This document shows, in pieces, positions 3,871-64,000 of a DNA stretch of 64,000 nucleotides. Each line of letters opens with the position of its first letter. The first letter of the stretch is position 1. The DNA is from an uncultured Monoglobus sp. Its GTDB lineage: Bacteria > Bacillota > Clostridia > Monoglobales > Monoglobaceae. The notes beneath the pieces are model-generated. The model saw only the letters and a program-made list of their open reading frames with translations. It was not told the DNA's origin and did not search any database. The stretch spans positions 124,001-188,000 of the forward strand of contig CANQKC010000001.1 of assembly GCA_947624305.1 (NCBI GenBank), read 5' to 3'. Both the position numbers and the translations under genes were made by a program.

Positions 3871-5160
3871 ATGAAATTTTTTAAGAAAAAATGCCTTATA
3901 CTTTTGCTGGCCGCAGCCGCGGCTGTGCTTATGACGTCATGCTCGGGCCTTGCGCCCGACAAAAATTCAGATAAGGTCACGCTTTCGGTCATGGGCAAGG
4001 AAAGCGATCTGAACAAAAGCTATATGACCAAAATATTTGACCTGTATGAAAAATCCACCGGAAACAAGCTGGATATAATGTCATTCGAGGACAGCGAATA
4101 TGAAACCACGGCAGTCCGTAAATTCGCGAAGGGCGATGTTCCGGATATATTCCTGCATTTCCACAATGCCGATCTGAACCGATTTAACGTTGCTGACAAC
4201 TTTTGTTTTCTGAATGACGAAAAATGGGTCGACGACCTGACCGACGGCGCCGAAGCCTATTGCCGCGACAAGGACGGAAACCTTCTCGGCCTGCCCTTCT
4301 GGGAAAACTCGGTTTCGGGCTGCTATTACAACAAGACGATCCTCGACGGCTTAGGCCTTAAGCCCGCGACAAATCAGGCGGAGTTTGACGTTCTCTGCCA
4401 GGTCCTCGCCGACACGGGCTACACGCCGATCTGCTGGCCCGCCGACGGCTGCTCGTGGATGGCGCAGTTCGGACTTGATCCAATCTTCGCCGACGACCCG
4501 GCGCTGCTTGAAAGACTTAACAAAAACGAAGTGTCCTACGCCGATATTCCCGAGGTCAACAATATGGTTAACTGGATCTCGAATGCAGCCGATAAGGGCT
4601 GGTTCGGCGCGGATTATCTTGAAACCGGCTGGTCGGAGATCAGCCCCGCGATCGCCTCGGGCGAGGCAGTCATGACCTTTATCTGGGACACATGGTTCGA
4701 CACCGACTTTGAGCCCGGCGGCAAATACTCCAAAGACGACTTCGCGGTTATGCCGGTGTTTATGAACACCGCCGACAGCGGCACCTACGAGGGCGGAAAC
4801 CTCAATATGATGATGGTCAACAAAAACAGTGAAAATCTTGAAGCGTCTCTTGATTTTCTGGATTTTTGCGCCGATCCCGAAAACTATAACAAAGCATTTG
4901 ACGGAATCTCAACAGTCAACTGCTTTAAGGGTCAGACTACCAATATCCAGTCAAAGCCCGTTATTGACGCCGCGGCGTCGATCGCGGCAAATGAGCGCGT
5001 TTCCACCGCGGCTTCCAGAATTAACGGCTACAGCGCCGACGACGTCGCTGCCGCGCTCCACGATATGCTGAGCGGCAAGACCGACGCGCGCGGCTGCATA
5101 AAACGCATGGATGAGTACAGGATAACCGAGGCGCAAAATCAGGTTTCGGATGAGTTTTAA
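3871..5160 (+). CDS. Extracellular solute-binding lipoprotein (ABC family 1 type)
   Basis: About 429 residues. The N-terminus is KKK plus a hydrophobic stretch ending in a lipobox (LMTSC, lipidated Cys24), so it is anchored outside the membrane. The body resembles family 1 sugar-binding proteins: an early phrase FDLYEKSTGNKL, then GNLLGLPFWEN, a mid-protein region ending WDTWF, and GTYEGGNLNMMM near the ligand pocket. No ABC permease or ATPase gene is adjacent; the only neighbour on this strand is the histidine kinase, one base upstream. It may therefore present a sugar to the kinase rather than, or as well as, to a transporter. The start codon is chosen from the signal peptide; an in-frame ATG exists at 3850. 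Confidence 0.85.
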   Translation: MKFFKKKCLILLLAAAAAVLMTSCSGLAPDKNSDKVTLSVMGKESDLNKSYMTKIFDLYEKSTGNKLDIMSFEDSEYETTAVRKFAKGDVPDIFLHFHNADLNRFNVADNFCFLNDEKWVDDLTDGAEAYCRDKDGNLLGLPFWENSVSGCYYNKTILDGLGLKPATNQAEFDVLCQVLADTGYTPICWPADGCSWMAQFGLDPIFADDPALLERLNKNEVSYADIPEVNNMVNWISNAADKGWFGADYLETGWSEISPAIASGEAVMTFIWDTWFDTDFEPGGKYSKDDFAVMPVFMNTADSGTYEGGNLNMMMVNKNSENLEASLDFLDFCADPENYNKAFDGISTVNCFKGQTTNIQSKPVIDAAASIAANERVSTAASRINGYSADDVAAALHDMLSGKTDARGCIKRMDEYRITEAQNQVSDEF

Positions 5161-57634: not shown

Positions 57635-59350
57635 TTATCCTGTTTTTTTGTTGTTTCCCGAAAAGTACATGTCTACTCCTTTCCGGGTGTTCATTTTTAT
57701 CTCGTTTGCGGGTATCGCTTTGAGCTTCGGTATCTCTATCGAGCCTATGCAGTTATAGTGTATTTTAAGCCGCTGAACTTTCTTTCCGTCGATTATTTCC
57801 GCTTGATATACCTCAATTTTTTCTATCAGCTCATTTAACATTCTCGGAGTAAGTTTTCTTGCCCGTGTATATTTCCTTACGACCGACATAAACTCATCCG
57901 TGGAAATGCTGCGGCTTTCGCTTTTGGATATCTCGGACTTGAGCGACTCTATCCGTTTTGCCAGCTCTTTCTGCTCGCCGTCATATTTCACCGACAGCTT
58001 TCCGAACCGCTCATCCGTTATTCGGCCCATTACGTTGTCCTCATATATGCGCTCGAATAATATGTCAAGCTCTTTGTCACGGGCGAGCAGGGCTTTAAGC
58101 TCATTTTGTTTTGCCTCGATTTTGTGTTCCGCGTCTTTTATCGACTGACCCATTACGAGCCTCATAAACTCGCCCTCATACTTTACGGCAAGCCTAGTGA
58201 GGCTCCGTATTTCTCCGAGCACCGCCTTTTCAAGAAAATCAACCCGTATATAATGAGTAGATGAGCAGATTTTTCTTGAGCCTCTGTTGTAGCCGGAACA
58301 GTTAAAGTATTCTATGCTCGGATTTTTCTGATTAAAATGATACCACAAATTGCTGCCGCAGTCAGCGCATACAAGCAATCCCGAAAACATATTTTTCTCG
58401 CCGTCGGCTTTCTTGCGTTTTCTTGTCTTACCGCACTTAGCCTGTATCTTCTCCCAGACCGAGCGCTCTATTATCGGCTCGTGAACGTCTTTAAATATTA
58501 CCCAATTTTCTTTGTCGTTCTCTATCCTTTTCTTGTTCTTATAGGATTTTGAGTATGTTTTAAAGTTGATCAGATCGCCGCAGTATTCCTGAGTATGCAG
58601 TATCTTTGTTATGGTCGAATTGTTCCACTTGTACGGTTCGGCGGTATTTATCCTGCCCGCTCTTTTTCTGCCCTTGCTCAGCCAATAGTTCATTGGCGTG
58701 AGTATCTTATCCTTTTCAAGCGCTCCTGCTATCTGCTCGGCTCCAAAGCCCGAAAGTGTCATCGAGTATATCCTTCGCACGACCGCCGCGGCTTCATCGT
58801 CAATTACCCACCGCTTATGATCATCGGGGTCCTGAATATATCCGTATGGCGGCTGGCCCAGAGGCTCGCCCGAATTGCCCTTGATTTTGTTGCTTATCCT
58901 GCGCTTTTTGGAAATGTCGCGGGAATACCACTCGTTAAACAGATTTTTTATCGGCGCTATATCATTCTCGCCTTCTTCCGTGTCGATACCGTCCGATACC
59001 GCAACAAGCCTTATGTCATGCTCGGGGAAAAATTCTTCCGTCAGCTTTCCGACTTCGATATAGTTCCTGCCGAGACGCGATAAGTCTTTTACAAACACCG
59101 CCGATACCTTGAAGTTTTTAATATCGCTCAGCATATCAGCAAAGCCGGGCCTGTCCATTGTCACGCCCGAAATTCCGTCGTCGCAGTATATGTAAAGTTT
59201 CGTATAGCCCTTTTCCTTAGCGACTTTTGTAAGCAGCTTTTTCTGATTGCCTATGCTGTAGCTGTCGCCTTCAAGATTATCGTCTCTGCTGAGACGGACA
59301 TACAGAGCAGCGGCTTCGTCTCGTTTGTAAGTTTTCTTCGACTGTCTCAT
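57635..59350 (-). CDS. Large serine recombinase (TnpX/TndX-like)
   Basis: A 571-residue resolvase-family recombinase. The catalytic Ser is S21 in LYVRLSRDD, followed by VFVKDLSRLGRN, DGIDT and the YSRDISKKRR segment. A recombinase domain with PPYGYIQDPDD follows, then a zinc ribbon (LLVCADCGSNLW, YFNCSGY, CSSTHYI) and a long coiled coil (about 400-500). Such enzymes excise and insert clostridial transposons, usually at GA dinucleotides. GGAGGC precedes the ATG. It is adjacent to tRNA-Leu, though tRNA ends are not the usual target of this family. Confidence 0.94.
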   Translation of the reverse strand: MRQSKKTYKRDEAAALYVRLSRDDNLEGDSYSIGNQKKLLTKVAKEKGYTKLYIYCDDGISGVTMDRPGFADMLSDIKNFKVSAVFVKDLSRLGRNYIEVGKLTEEFFPEHDIRLVAVSDGIDTEEGENDIAPIKNLFNEWYSRDISKKRRISNKIKGNSGEPLGQPPYGYIQDPDDHKRWVIDDEAAAVVRRIYSMTLSGFGAEQIAGALEKDKILTPMNYWLSKGRKRAGRINTAEPYKWNNSTITKILHTQEYCGDLINFKTYSKSYKNKKRIENDKENWVIFKDVHEPIIERSVWEKIQAKCGKTRKRKKADGEKNMFSGLLVCADCGSNLWYHFNQKNPSIEYFNCSGYNRGSRKICSSTHYIRVDFLEKAVLGEIRSLTRLAVKYEGEFMRLVMGQSIKDAEHKIEAKQNELKALLARDKELDILFERIYEDNVMGRITDERFGKLSVKYDGEQKELAKRIESLKSEISKSESRSISTDEFMSVVRKYTRARKLTPRMLNELIEKIEVYQAEIIDGKKVQRLKIHYNCIGSIEIPKLKAIPANEIKMNTRKGVDMYFSGNNKKTG

Positions 59351-59553: not shown

Positions 59554-59711
59554 AGCAAGCACAGCAAACGGGTACCCAATTTTAATAAATCAAAATCGCT
59601 TTACTTGCAAATTATGAATAACAGCAAGCAAAGCGAATGGGTACCCGTTCGCGGTTTTGCGAAACGGACAAGCCGTTTTATACGCAAAAAAATATTGGGA
59701 AATTATCCCAA
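59554..59711. repeat. oriT-like repeat region upstream of mobC
   Basis: Two 24-base direct repeats (59554-59577 and 59623-59646, 21 of 24 identical, ending GGGTACCC) 69 bases apart, a CGTTCGC...GCGAAACG hairpin (about 59647-59668) and the inverted repeat TTGGGA/TCCCAA (59695-59711). Inverted repeats next to a MobC gene suggest a transfer origin. The rest of 59351-59553 shows nothing else. Confidence 0.5.
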
Positions 59712-59740
59712 ACCCTTTATTAAATTTCGGAGGTATACGC

Positions 59741-60202
59741 ATGGAAAACAGAAAGAGAAATATTCAGATAAAATTCAGAGTAACGGAAAAAGAACGCGAG
59801 CTTATCGAGAAGAAAATGGCGCAGCTACCCATACATAAAATCGGAGCGTACATGCGCAAAATGGCAATAGACGGCTACATAATCTACACAGACTTATCGC
59901 CGATAAAAGAATACGCCAAACAGCTTCAAGCCATCGGCAAAAACATAAATCAAATCGCAAAGCGCGTAAACGAGAAAGGCTCGATCTACAAAGACGACAT
60001 AGCAGCTCTACAAGTAACCGCTGATCAAATATGGTATGCTGATTGCGTCGGCAGGAATTTCGTCAGATTGTTCAAAAGTGACGCGGCATACTTTGTGTAT
60101 GGCAAGGAGCTTTTGGGCGATATGACGGAATTATCGCAAGCAAGCAGCGTGCCAAGCCGTAGGCGGTATTTAATCAGCGGTTACGAAGGAAAAAATGAAT
60201 GA
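59741..60202 (+). CDS. MobC-like relaxosome protein with an unusual C-terminus
   Basis: A 153-residue protein. The first 100 residues (RNIQIKFRVTEKERELIEKK, GAYMRKMAIDGYII, IGKNINQIAKRVNE) match MobC/ribbon-helix-helix mobilization proteins that open oriT for the relaxase. Normal MobC proteins end soon after this point; here the frame runs on from about residue 106 into an unrelated tail (VGRNFVRLFKSDAAYFVYGK...), as if a deletion joined two genes. GGAGGT precedes the ATG at 59741. The expected relaxase gene downstream is missing. Confidence 0.75.
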   Translation: MENRKRNIQIKFRVTEKERELIEKKMAQLPIHKIGAYMRKMAIDGYIIYTDLSPIKEYAKQLQAIGKNINQIAKRVNEKGSIYKDDIAALQVTADQIWYADCVGRNFVRLFKSDAAYFVYGKELLGDMTELSQASSVPSRRRYLISGYEGKNE

Positions 60203-60452: not shown

Positions 60453-60480
60453 TTAAATAATTTAAGCGTATATCATAATA

Positions 60481-60513
60481 AATCAGGAAACGATATTTTC
60501 GCGTTTCCTGATT
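60481..60513 (+). terminator. Hairpin terminator at the right end of the element remnant
   Basis: 12-bp perfect stem starting AATCAGGAAACG with a 9-base loop, followed by TTTG. Confidence 0.65.
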
Positions 60514-60584
60514 TGTTAATTCTTTTGTAAGCTGATAAAACGGTTTCAAATATCAATAAAATATGTACAAAGTGACAAACAAAT

Positions 60585-60611
60585 TTTCGCATAACTGTAT
60601 ATTATGCGAAA
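60585..60611 (+). repeat. Recombination site L
   Basis: Arms TTTCGCATAA and TTATGCGAAA around spacer CTGTATA. Exact reverse complement of site R. Confidence 0.8.
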
Positions 60612-60825
60612 GCAAATTCAACCGATTATTTAGCGATATTATATCACAATTTATTAAAAAAAGCAATACATTTATCAAATTTTGTATGATTTGAAAACCG
60701 CCCAAATTGTATTCGCTAAAAAATCCGTATGCTTTACTAATTTTTAGCTGTGAAAATCGCAAAAATCAGTTAAAATAGGGTTATTAGCCGTCAAAAATCA
60801 CTGTATAATTTTCAATGATTTTTCT

Positions 60826-60889
60826 CGTTAATGTTATACGAAAATCGTAGGCATCTTTGTTAAAGCACGCCGTCAATGTTATGCGAAAA
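60826..60889 (+). repeat. Arm-type repeats H1 and H2
   Basis: H1 (60826-60844) is CGTTAATGTTATACGAAAA; H2 (60871-60889) is CGTCAATGTTATGCGAAAA. Start-to-start spacing is 45 bases. Each contains the core half-site TTATRCGAAA. They lie just upstream of the recombinase start codon. Confidence 0.75.
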
Positions 60890-60925
60890 TGCCGATAAAT
60901 TTACGATAAGACAGGGGGTAATTTA

Positions 60926-62017
60926 ATGCCAAAAAAAGGTGAAAATATTTACAAAAGAAAAGACGGCAGATGGGAGGGCAGGTATATAGTTTCGCGCGGG
61001 CTTGACGGCAAGCCCAAATATCAGTCGGTCTATGGAAAAACCTATAAGGAGATCAAAAGCAAAATGAGCGGCGATGCCGAAAAAACAGTTTCGGGAAAGG
61101 CAAACGCCGGAATGACAGCCGCCGAATGGACGCTAAGATATATTCAAAGCGTTAAGGGAGCGGTAAAAATTTCAACGTACAATATGTATCTTTTGCACCT
61201 TAAAAACCATATAGCGCCGTTTTTCGGAAAAATTAAACTTGACAGCCTTACCGAGACAGATTTGCAGAAATTCGTGTATTCAATGAGCGGCCTTTCGGCC
61301 TCGTCGGTCAGAGTGGTTTTTTCAACCTTGAAAGACGCTCTTTACGCTGCGTATAAACTCGGGTTCGTCAAAAGCAATGTGTGGAGCGACATTAAGCTGC
61401 CAAAAATGAAAAAGCATGAGACTTACGCCTTTTCACAGCTTGAACAACGCATGATCGAAAACGCTTTGAATATTGAGGGAGATCCCAACGAAATCGGCAT
61501 ACTCATTTGTCTGTATACCGGTTTGCGTATAGGGGAGCTTTGCGGTCTTAAATGGAGCGACATCAACTTCGCGGGCGCAACGCTTTCCGTGAACAGAACT
61601 ATTCAGCGTGTGACTATAGACGGCAAATCAATTTTGCAGGAAATGCCGCCCAAAAGCCTCAGTTCGGAGCGCAAAATCCCGATACAAGAATTTTTGCTGC
61701 GTCGGCTGAAAAAGCTCAAAAATAACTCGTCAAGCGTTTATGTACTCTCAATGAACTCACACGTGATGGACCCGCGGACGTACCAGAATTTATATAAGCG
61801 CGTGCTTAAACGCGCGGGTGTTGAATATATGAACTTTCACTGCCTCAGACACACTTTTTCGGTTAGAGCCCTTGAAAACGGGTTTGATATTAAAACGTTA
61901 AGCGATATTCTCGGCCATGGCAGTCCCGCAGTGACTATGAACATTTACGCTCATTCGCTCGATAAGCATAAGCGTGTGAGTATGGAACGATTATCGGAAA
62001 TTCGAGAAGTAGGTTAG
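60926..62017 (+). CDS. Tyrosine recombinase (phage-integrase family)
   Basis: A 363-residue recombinase. Residues 1-60 (KGENIYKRKDGRWEGRYIVS) form an AP2-like arm-binding domain, residues about 65-160 a core-binding helical domain, and the catalytic domain has R201 in LYTGLRIGELCGL, HCLRHTFSVRAL, GHGSPAVTMNIYAH with the tyrosine nucleophile. All five catalytic positions look intact. GGGGG lies eight bases before the ATG. Arm-binding integrases contact repeats at a distance from the crossover, which fits the repeat pairs H1/H2 and H3/H4 on either side of the gene. No excisionase gene is nearby. Confidence 0.93.
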   Translation: MPKKGENIYKRKDGRWEGRYIVSRGLDGKPKYQSVYGKTYKEIKSKMSGDAEKTVSGKANAGMTAAEWTLRYIQSVKGAVKISTYNMYLLHLKNHIAPFFGKIKLDSLTETDLQKFVYSMSGLSASSVRVVFSTLKDALYAAYKLGFVKSNVWSDIKLPKMKKHETYAFSQLEQRMIENALNIEGDPNEIGILICLYTGLRIGELCGLKWSDINFAGATLSVNRTIQRVTIDGKSILQEMPPKSLSSERKIPIQEFLLRRLKKLKNNSSSVYVLSMNSHVMDPRTYQNLYKRVLKRAGVEYMNFHCLRHTFSVRALENGFDIKTLSDILGHGSPAVTMNIYAHSLDKHKRVSMERLSEIREVG

Positions 62018-62103
62018 TTTTTTGACAGCCTAACAAAATATTGCATTACCAATATTTACCAAAATAAATTTTGTCTGATCACATTATGTTTTCAATGTAT
62101 GAC

Positions 62104-62167
62104 CGTAAATGTTATACGAATGTTTAAGTCATTTTTAAGCCGGTCAACCGTTAATGTTATACGAAAA
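62104..62167 (+). repeat. Arm-type repeats H3 and H4
   Basis: H3 (62104-62122, CGTAAATGTTATACGAATG) and H4 (62149-62167, CGTTAATGTTATACGAAAA) have the same orientation and the same 45-base spacing as H1 and H2. Several CCGTCAA motifs follow (62183-62215). Confidence 0.75.
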
Positions 62168-62244
62168 CATAAACATGGTTAAGCCGTCAATAACCGTCAA
62201 AAAATAAGCCGTCAAGGCCTTTGGAATCAACGTAAAATCGGGTG

Positions 62245-62272
62245 TTTACAACAAATTTTCGCATAATATACA
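62245..62272 (+). promoter_or_regulatory. Possible promoter across recombination site R
   Basis: TTTACA (62245-62250) lies inside the segment and TATACA (62267-62272) inside the spacer of site R, 16 bases apart. Inversion would replace the -35 with a poor one. The -10 match is modest. Confidence 0.35.
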
Positions 62273-62283
62273 GTTATGCGAAA
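62257..62283 (+). repeat. Recombination site R
   Basis: Arms TTTCGCATAA and TTATGCGAAA around spacer TATACAG. Lies 82 bases before the cohesin-dockerin start codon. Confidence 0.8.
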
Positions 62284-62364: not shown

Positions 62365-63393
62365 ATGGCAAGAAAAAAATTATCACTGCTGCTCGCGCTG
62401 ATTATCGTGCTGGTTCCGGTGTTCAATTCGGCGCCTGTGTCAGCCGCGGTGAATCCTACGGCGACGCTTACCGATGTAACAAACCTTTCGCCCGGTCTCA
62501 GGGGCGAGTGCAAAATTCGGGTGTCGATGAGCGGAGTTGACGAAGTGCTTTCGGCTATTCAGCTTTGCTTAAACTACGACAGCGCGACCATGGAATACCG
62601 TTCGATCGAGTGGGGCGATTTCTCGGACACAAGCACAAAGATAGCGCCCACAGACAACAACGGAACGTTGATGTTCTCGGTGAACGACTATGACGACGGC
62701 ATCAGAGCGACTGACGACATGACGGTATGCGTACTGACCTTCGCTGCGGCGGAGCCGAGCGGAAATGACCGCGTTAACGTGTCGCTCAACAATCTTGAGG
62801 ACTCTTACGTTATGACCGAGGCTCACAGAGGCGGCGGCGCAATAGGCGATGTTGTTGAATTTACGAATGCGGCAAGCGTTGAGGGAGTTGCCAGAACCGA
62901 GGGTGAGAGCGGACTTGCCGCTAAAATCTCGCTTGTATTTGACGGAGTTGACGGCTTTGCGACGAGCGGCGACAGCAGCGGCATTAACATAGAGCTTGTG
63001 AACAACGCGAGCGGCGCCAAAAGCTCATGGCGGCTTGACAAGAGCGCGGACCGCGACACATCCAAAACGGTGCCGACGTATGTGTTTAACGCCGAGGGTT
63101 TGGTTGCCGGAAGCTACACGATAAGTGTGAGCGGCGAGGGCTATGTTCCGTTTGCGCGCGAGATAAGCATGACCGACAGCACATCGTTTGAGATAACCAA
63201 CGACGCGTTTGTCCCGGGCGACATAAACTCCGACGAGAAGGTTGACGCCGCCGATTACAATCTTATCATGTCATACATAAAGAACGGCAGAATAGCCTAC
63301 ACGACAAACAGCTTTGACTTCAACCGCGACGGCAGGGTTGACAGATACGACCTTGCGGCGATGAAACGCGTGCTTGAAAAGGAGGCGGAATAG
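62365..63393 (+). CDS. Secreted cohesin-like, X-module and dockerin protein
   Basis: A 342-residue exported protein. Signal peptide 1-27 (ARKKLSLLLALIIVLVPV). A cohesin-like beta-sandwich follows (about 30-170; AIQLCLNYDSATMEY, VCVLTFAA). A regulatory or X-like beta domain (about 180-285) precedes a type I dockerin with two calcium loops, GDINSDEKVDAADYNLI and FDFNRDGRVDRYDLAAM. Having both partner types in one chain suggests an adaptor in a cellulosome-like surface complex. AAGGAG is eight bases before the ATG at 62365. It lies directly downstream of the putative inversion switch and is followed by a second cohesin-like gene. Confidence 0.85.
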   Translation: MARKKLSLLLALIIVLVPVFNSAPVSAAVNPTATLTDVTNLSPGLRGECKIRVSMSGVDEVLSAIQLCLNYDSATMEYRSIEWGDFSDTSTKIAPTDNNGTLMFSVNDYDDGIRATDDMTVCVLTFAAAEPSGNDRVNVSLNNLEDSYVMTEAHRGGGAIGDVVEFTNAASVEGVARTEGESGLAAKISLVFDGVDGFATSGDSSGINIELVNNASGAKSSWRLDKSADRDTSKTVPTYVFNAEGLVAGSYTISVSGEGYVPFAREISMTDSTSFEITNDAFVPGDINSDEKVDAADYNLIMSYIKNGRIAYTTNSFDFNRDGRVDRYDLAAMKRVLEKEAE

Positions 63394-63394
63394 C

Positions 63395-64000
63395 ATGAGC
63401 AAAACAGTGACTCTTAATATTAATAGGAAACGACTGATATTGACATTTTTCACGGCGGCGTTGATCGCGGTATTTCTGCTGATCTCGGTTCCCGCGCACG
63501 CGGCGGCGAGCGCGAACGTAAAAGCCGAGCCGTCGGCGGTGTCGGTCAAGACGGGAGACAGTTTTGAGATACTTGTGCAGATAAGCGAGCCCGCGGCGTA
63601 CACCTACGAGATCAAGGGTACTTACGGCGCCCAAGCGGAGCTTACCGGCGTGGAACTGCCCGCCACAATCGATGAGATAAACAAGGGCATAACCAAGACC
63701 GGCAGCGGCGCTTTTACGCTGATGAACACTATCGACGCACCGCAGAGCGACGGAACCGTGGCAAAGCTCAAGTTCCGCGCGCTCAGCTCCGGAACGTTTC
63801 AGGTTCGGATAAGCGGGGCGCGGGTGTTCGCGGAAGTGACCGGCCCGTCCGATTTGAACGAGGCTGAAATGACGGTCACAACCGACAACTGCTCGGTAAC
63901 GATCACGGGCAACACGGTTGAGCCAAGTGTTACGGCAGGCCCGGCACCCACTCCCACTAAGACTCCCTCAAGCACCGGCACCGGCGGTGGCGGCGGCGGA
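63395..64000 (+). CDS. Cohesin-like surface protein, truncated by the window end
   Basis: The first 202 codons are present with no stop. A signal peptide (about 1-37, LILTFFTAALIAVFLLISV) is followed by a cohesin-like domain (about 40-170, VKTGDSFEILVQIS, AKLKFRALSSGTFQV), then a PTPTKTPSS linker and a run of glycines. In the giant enzyme of this window a comparable glycine/threonine linker leads into three SLH repeats, so a wall anchor may follow here. The ATG comes one base after the previous stop region, with GGAGG upstream, so the two genes are coupled. Confidence 0.8.
   Translation, partial: MSKTVTLNINRKRLILTFFTAALIAVFLLISVPAHAAASANVKAEPSAVSVKTGDSFEILVQISEPAAYTYEIKGTYGAQAELTGVELPATIDEINKGITKTGSGAFTLMNTIDAPQSDGTVAKLKFRALSSGTFQVRISGARVFAEVTGPSDLNEAEMTVTTDNCSVTITGNTVEPSVTAGPAPTPTKTPSSTGTGGGGGG

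Follow-up and report, generated by a model that had tools for sequence, protein, structure and literature searches.

A probable self-contained phase-variation cassette with a Tn916-type recombinase beside a cohesin-dockerin gene of an uncultured Monoglobus

A tyrosine recombinase gene enclosed by two short inverted sites, upstream of surface-protein genes, raises the question of whether it belongs to a gene switch or to a mobile element. Such an arrangement is found at positions 60585-62283 of the window, i.e., the whole stretch of 64,000 nucleotides that was analysed (Table 1). Its interpretation as a self-contained phase-variation cassette, whose own recombinase inverts the segment and thereby moves a promoter that switches the cohesin-dockerin genes, is held here with high but not complete confidence.

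Table 1. Features of the cassette and its surroundings (window coordinates)
Feature	Position	Strand	Details or basis
Hairpin, strong; possible terminator that the promoter faces as assembled	60476-60518	.	fold z-score ~-5 on either strand
Left crossover site	60585-60611	.	arms TTTCGCATAA / TTATGCGAAA, spacer CTGTATA
Outward promoter	60638-60666	-	TTGCTT-17-TATAAT, extended -10 (TGATATAAT); position conserved among family members
Putative arm-type repeats left of int	60787-60878	+	GCCGTCAA, copies at ~60787 and ~60869; shared-motif analysis
Two direct repeats, site-arm-like	60826-60903	+	~GTTATACGAAAA; repeat family D1
Tyrosine recombinase (int), 363 aa, Tn916/Tn1549 type	60926-62017	+	profile and fold match
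Putative arm-type repeats right of int	62183-62216	+	three CCGTCAA copies; shared-motif analysis
Right crossover site	62257-62283	.	arms as in left site, spacer TATACAG
Cohesin-dockerin surface-protein gene, proposed target	62365-63393	+	Dockerin_1 and Cohesin matches
Next gene, incomplete at window end	63395-64000	+	open frame directly after the target, same direction

The two sites are exact reverse complements over 27/27 nt and enclose the recombinase gene, as an earlier note on this DNA had claimed. The layout described in that note was also found at both ends, each site consisting of 10-bp palindromic arms around a 7-bp asymmetric spacer. Simple counting gives a chance match of 27 nt within 64 kb a probability on the order of 1e-7. 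Furthermore, a search of the 2.68-Mb genome for the palindromic pattern, with the 7-nt spacer left free, yielded these two sites only. The spacers match at 7/7 positions as reverse complements and at 0/7 in direct orientation. The cassette does not meet the criterion for attL and attR ends, namely matching core spacers in direct orientation at both ends.

This criterion concerns another reading, according to which the two sites would delimit a minimal integrated element able to excise in circular form, i.e., a conjugative transposon stripped to its integrase. The earlier note had considered such an element because bases just outside the arms seemed similar in direct orientation. This similarity is real and corresponds to a 17-nt direct repeat, AACAAATTTTCGCATAA, located at 60578-60594 and 62250-62266 and overlapping both sites. 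The repeat is unexplained and is unexpected under pure inversion. The partial direct similarity that it gives to the bases adjacent to the arms counts in favour of an excisable element. It is absent from the related cassettes whose flanks were examined.

The close relatives bear on the same question. Recombinases that are 45-56% identical to that of the cassette occur in its own genome and in five other genomes of the same taxonomic family. In the nearest clade, the left spacer of each cassette is the exact reverse complement of the right one, while their sequence differs from one cassette to the next. Besides the cassette of Table 1, there are four of them, with the spacer pairs TACAAT/ATTGTA (own genome, contigs C3 and C39), TCTATG/CATAGA, TCTAAT/ATTAGA and TATAAT/ATTATA. 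As a tyrosine recombinase requires matching spacers, differing spacers that obey a single inverted rule are what inversion requires. An excisable element is difficult to reconcile with spacers that are exactly inverted in all the resolved cassettes of the clade, since these predict inversion and not excision.

The second nearest-clade cassette of the same genome (L023, 1-3600 on C39; L025, 2700-2901 on C3) has insertion-sequence DNA at both contig ends. C3 and C39 could be the two ends of a single cassette interrupted by insertion-sequence DNA; this stays a guess because the same insertion-sequence end lies on both contig ends. This cassette ends on the right ~65 bp before a gene whose start is anti-anti-sigma-like and which also has a kinase-like part.

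The recombinase matches the Phage_integrase profile (E 2.9e-27) and a SAM-like N-terminal domain (E 3.8e-12), and the best match of its predicted fold is the Tn1549 integrase (6en2, E 4e-16). Residues R201, K243, H305, R308, H331 and Y341 are invariant in nine relatives; their catalytic roles are candidate assignments, presumed from general knowledge of the family. The model of the N-terminal part displays strands at 4-10, 16-24 and 30-37 and a helix at 40-47 (moderate to low confidence). It meets the criterion of the IntTn916 subgroup, in which the N-terminal domain that binds the arm sites consists of three strands and a helix (PMC8138268). In the model of the catalytic domain, extra strands at 225-231 and 234-240 are compatible with the beta insertion located between strands 2 and 3 in IntTn916, a correspondence that does not rest on a residue-by-residue comparison.

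Such arm binding would involve repeats inside the segment. Besides the putative arm-type repeats, repeat family D1 has two further copies at 62104-62136 and 62149-62181. The motif GCCGTCA is found on both sides of int in direct orientation in 18/54 family loci and is not one of the motifs that the two sides share as inverted copies. By inference, it is likely to be the arm-type site bound by the N-terminal domain of the recombinase. The fold match, the three-strand-plus-helix model and the direct repeats flanking int thus liken the cassette to Tn916/Tn1549 integrases. Membership of this enzyme family, which is that of conjugative transposons, also fits an excisable element. However, the cassette differs from Tn916 and Tn1549 by its lack of transfer genes, its inverted instead of direct spacers, its relatives that are flipped instead of excised and its conserved outward promoter.

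This conserved promoter beside the left site, absent from the earlier note, is what makes the cassette a switch. It lies just inside the segment, ~26 nt from the left site, and reads leftwards as assembled. Its -35 box is weak (3/6), which explains its absence from the output of the generic promoter scan. Nearly every cassette of the family carries an outward sigma-70-like promoter just inside the site upstream of int, often a full TTGACA-17-TATAAT. Over 47 non-redundant loci, promoter scores are higher on the outward than on the inward strand (P 6e-8) and higher than in dinucleotide-preserving shuffles (P 3e-12), while those of the inward strand do not differ from shuffles.

The presence downstream of a cohesin/dockerin surface protein, which had also been claimed, is confirmed by the profile matches, and the gene that follows it is probably co-transcribed with it. 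After inversion, the promoter would lie at 62202-62230, the end of its -10 box being 134 nt before the ATG at 62365. As it points away from this gene in the assembly and inversion would bring it this close upstream, the assembled state is inferred to be probably OFF for the cohesin-dockerin gene. The hairpin on the left is without a classic T run after it. Of the features that define an inverton, the segment has the exact inverted repeats at its ends and, judged by sequence and family conservation, an outward promoter within it that faces a gene in one orientation. It is likely, by inference and with transcription not measured, that the promoter turns the neighbouring surface-protein gene on or off depending on its orientation. 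No strong terminator was seen 3' of the recombinase gene; therefore int transcripts might read into the target in the present orientation.

The wider family, which the earlier note had not recognised, was obtained by scanning species-representative genomes and includes at least 80 loci from Clostridia and Enterococcus, 72 of which have enough flank for scoring. Among the matches listed, 62 of these 72 scorable loci have an inverted repeat between the upstream and downstream sides of int with a score of at least 14. A control that paired the upstream side of one locus with the downstream side of a different one gave a 95% limit of 13 and, rarely, values as high as 24. Around four tyrosine recombinases of the cassette's own genome that are more distantly related (L007-L010), scores are only 9-11 with equal flank length, so that such repeats are absent there. 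The recombinases of E. gilvus (L151) and Vescimonas (L153) adjoin surface-protein genes and were excluded as evidence because no site pair could be resolved there.

The neighbours of family cassettes often encode secreted or surface proteins (SLH, leucine-rich repeat, dockerin, CHAP). Others encode chemotaxis proteins (MCP, CheW) or regulators (Mga, LytTR, SpoVT, TadZ-like). In one Enterococcus raffinosus megaplasmid, a helix-turn-helix gene and an accessory Sec operon are found downstream of a cassette, and in the cultured relative Lacrimispora, homologous cassettes precede a chemotaxis-receptor gene. Among 40 classifiable non-redundant loci, both neighbours point towards the cassette in only 2. 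A gene points away on the right only in 16 (promoter reading away from the gene, OFF), on the left only in 3 (ON) and on both sides in 19. Loci with a single clear target, as assembled, are thus OFF in 16 cases versus ON in 3, hinting at a bias towards the OFF orientation.

These data are relevant to the possibility that the segment inverts without controlling the cohesin-dockerin genes, for example if these have their own promoter or if inversion mainly alters the expression of the recombinase. The weak -35 box is compatible with it, as are the 19 of 40 relatives in which the regulated gene is not always obvious. However, it leaves unaccounted for the strong family-wide enrichment of a promoter beside the site on one strand only, and the neighbours are typical targets of phase variation. 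In addition, the generic scan reported nothing promoter-like on the plus strand from the right site to the 62365 gene. An absence of control is consequently regarded as unlikely, without being negligible.

Family cassettes occupy many different loci and are also found on conjugative elements and plasmids, as could be expected from an excisable element. Carriage on conjugative elements and megaplasmids may itself explain part of their spread to new loci. In viral contigs, only two distant partial relatives were found. Homologues of the VTC-domain target of one cassette (L047) are too divergent (~50% identity) to tell anything about insertion.

The most direct evidence for inversion comes from homologous cassettes found in both orientations. 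The 1.38-kb cassettes L037 and L042 are homologous and opposite in orientation, within a flank of ~13.7 kb that is 99.9% identical. They are carried by a conjugative element that occurs in two species of the genus and that was recognised by reading alone, without a profile search, from its long VirB4-like and NlpC/P60-like ORFs. At base level, the exchange maps within the site: the outer half-sites remain attached to the flanks, and the inner half-sites, which differ at the two ends, move with the segment. On an element that is 75-83% identical (L038), the cassette is also flipped relative to L042. A third genome harbours a 93% identical copy of the element (L177), in which the left junction is flipped and no more than 113 bp of the cassette remain (4984-5096); this suggests an inversion and then a deletion. 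L040 and L041, which represent a further locus and come from two genomes of a different genus within the same taxonomic family, are flipped with respect to each other, both flanks being homologous (~78% identity). In the nearest clade, L035 and L036 also have opposite orientations; as only one flank is homologous, this flip is merely supportive. No flip was found within the Enterococcus raffinosus megaplasmids, where all the compared pairs have one orientation, so switching may be slow.

At one locus of these megaplasmids (L148 and L149), the left flank is 98.7% identical, the cassette 79% and the right flank 90%. Switch and target region seem to have been exchanged there as a block.

Both orientations are therefore seen in relatives, and the inversion claimed in the earlier note holds for homologous cassettes (L037/L042, L040/L041 and the L177 junction). 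For the 1.7-kb copy itself, known from a single assembly and in one orientation, it is only inferred, as is the role of its own recombinase as the agent. The search of other genomes for a flipped or absent segment, which the earlier note had advised, provided flipped homologues but no empty site. The closest other copy of the conjugative element (L177) is flipped and shortened, not empty, and the other 11 genomes of the genus contain no match to the target gene. Relatives that are flipped and not excised, together with the inverted spacers, led to the rejection of an excisable element as the main reading; the small integrated element of the earlier note is disfavoured and retains only a very slight chance.

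The single known orientation of the 60585-62283 copy and the existence of a shortened relative such as L177 would also be compatible with a dead relic that has lost inversion. Nevertheless, the recombinase gene is intact with all its candidate catalytic residues, and the two sites show no mismatch along their 27 nt, spacers included, a state that decay would erode. This makes a relic highly improbable.

For an active phase-variation cassette, the following mechanism can be proposed. The encoded recombinase would bind both 27-bp sites, probably with the help of its N-terminal domain, attached to the internal direct repeats. The sites would be paired with their 7-bp spacers matching, and strand exchange would take place there. 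Given the opposite directions of the two spacers, this would invert the entire segment together with the recombinase gene. In the assembled orientation, the promoter would read left towards the hairpin, leaving the right-hand genes OFF; in the inverted one, it would read from its new position into the cohesin-dockerin genes, which would be ON. The expected inverted left junction, deduced from the sequence, is the left flank ACAAACAAAT followed by the site and ATTTGTTGTAAACACC.

By its layout, the closest known system is the Hin flagellar switch of Salmonella, in which an outward promoter at one end of the segment drives a surface-structure operon in one orientation only. As in the cassette, the end sites are short and inverted. 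Another shared feature is the position of the recombinase gene within the segment that Hin inverts (PMC5903667). The enzymes are unrelated: Hin is a serine recombinase with a Fis-bound enhancer, whereas the cassette encodes a tyrosine recombinase with probable arm-type repeats. The Hin-type criteria of a recombinase inside the segment and of an outward promoter are met, but not that of a serine recombinase, given the Phage_integrase fold. The cassette works like Hin without belonging to the Hin family.

Tyrosine recombinases that invert a promoter segment for a surface structure are exemplified by FimB and FimE of E. coli. These are, however, encoded outside their 314-bp segment, and the fim-type invertase models of NCBIfam match the cassette enzyme only weakly (E 2e-5, far below cut-off). 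The RecV switches of Clostridioides difficile and gut invertons likewise rest on promoter segments that can invert and that, in Clostridia, act on surface and signalling genes (PMC5903667, PMC11892184). In the case of RecV, one enzyme serves several switches and is encoded outside them, whereas each cassette described here has its own enzyme and a private site sequence. An inverton example from Clostridia has ~200 bp between its repeats, which is too short for a recombinase gene (PMC11892184).

No published tyrosine recombinase located inside its own invertible promoter segment was found in the open-access literature; since subscription papers and preprints were outside the scope of this search, this is weak evidence of novelty. 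Whether the cassettes form a widespread class undescribed in the literature searched, i.e., self-contained promoter switches derived from Tn916-type integrases, spreading horizontally and installing phase variation on any adjacent gene, including genes of conjugative elements and megaplasmids, is judged to be an even bet. If true, integrase genes of this family that lie between inverted repeats could be recognised as gene switches and not as integrases of mobile elements. Dozens of candidate phase-variable loci would then exist in gut Clostridia and Enterococcus, involving surface proteins, chemotaxis, accessory secretion, regulators and genes of conjugative elements. Such cassettes would represent an enzyme of mobile elements turned into a regulatory device, which would have converged on the Hin design with a private site sequence for each copy.

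Directly left of the cassette, the window contains a large serine recombinase gene (57635-59350, - strand) and a NikA/MobC-like mobilization gene (59657-60202), which are perhaps the remains of a mobile element.
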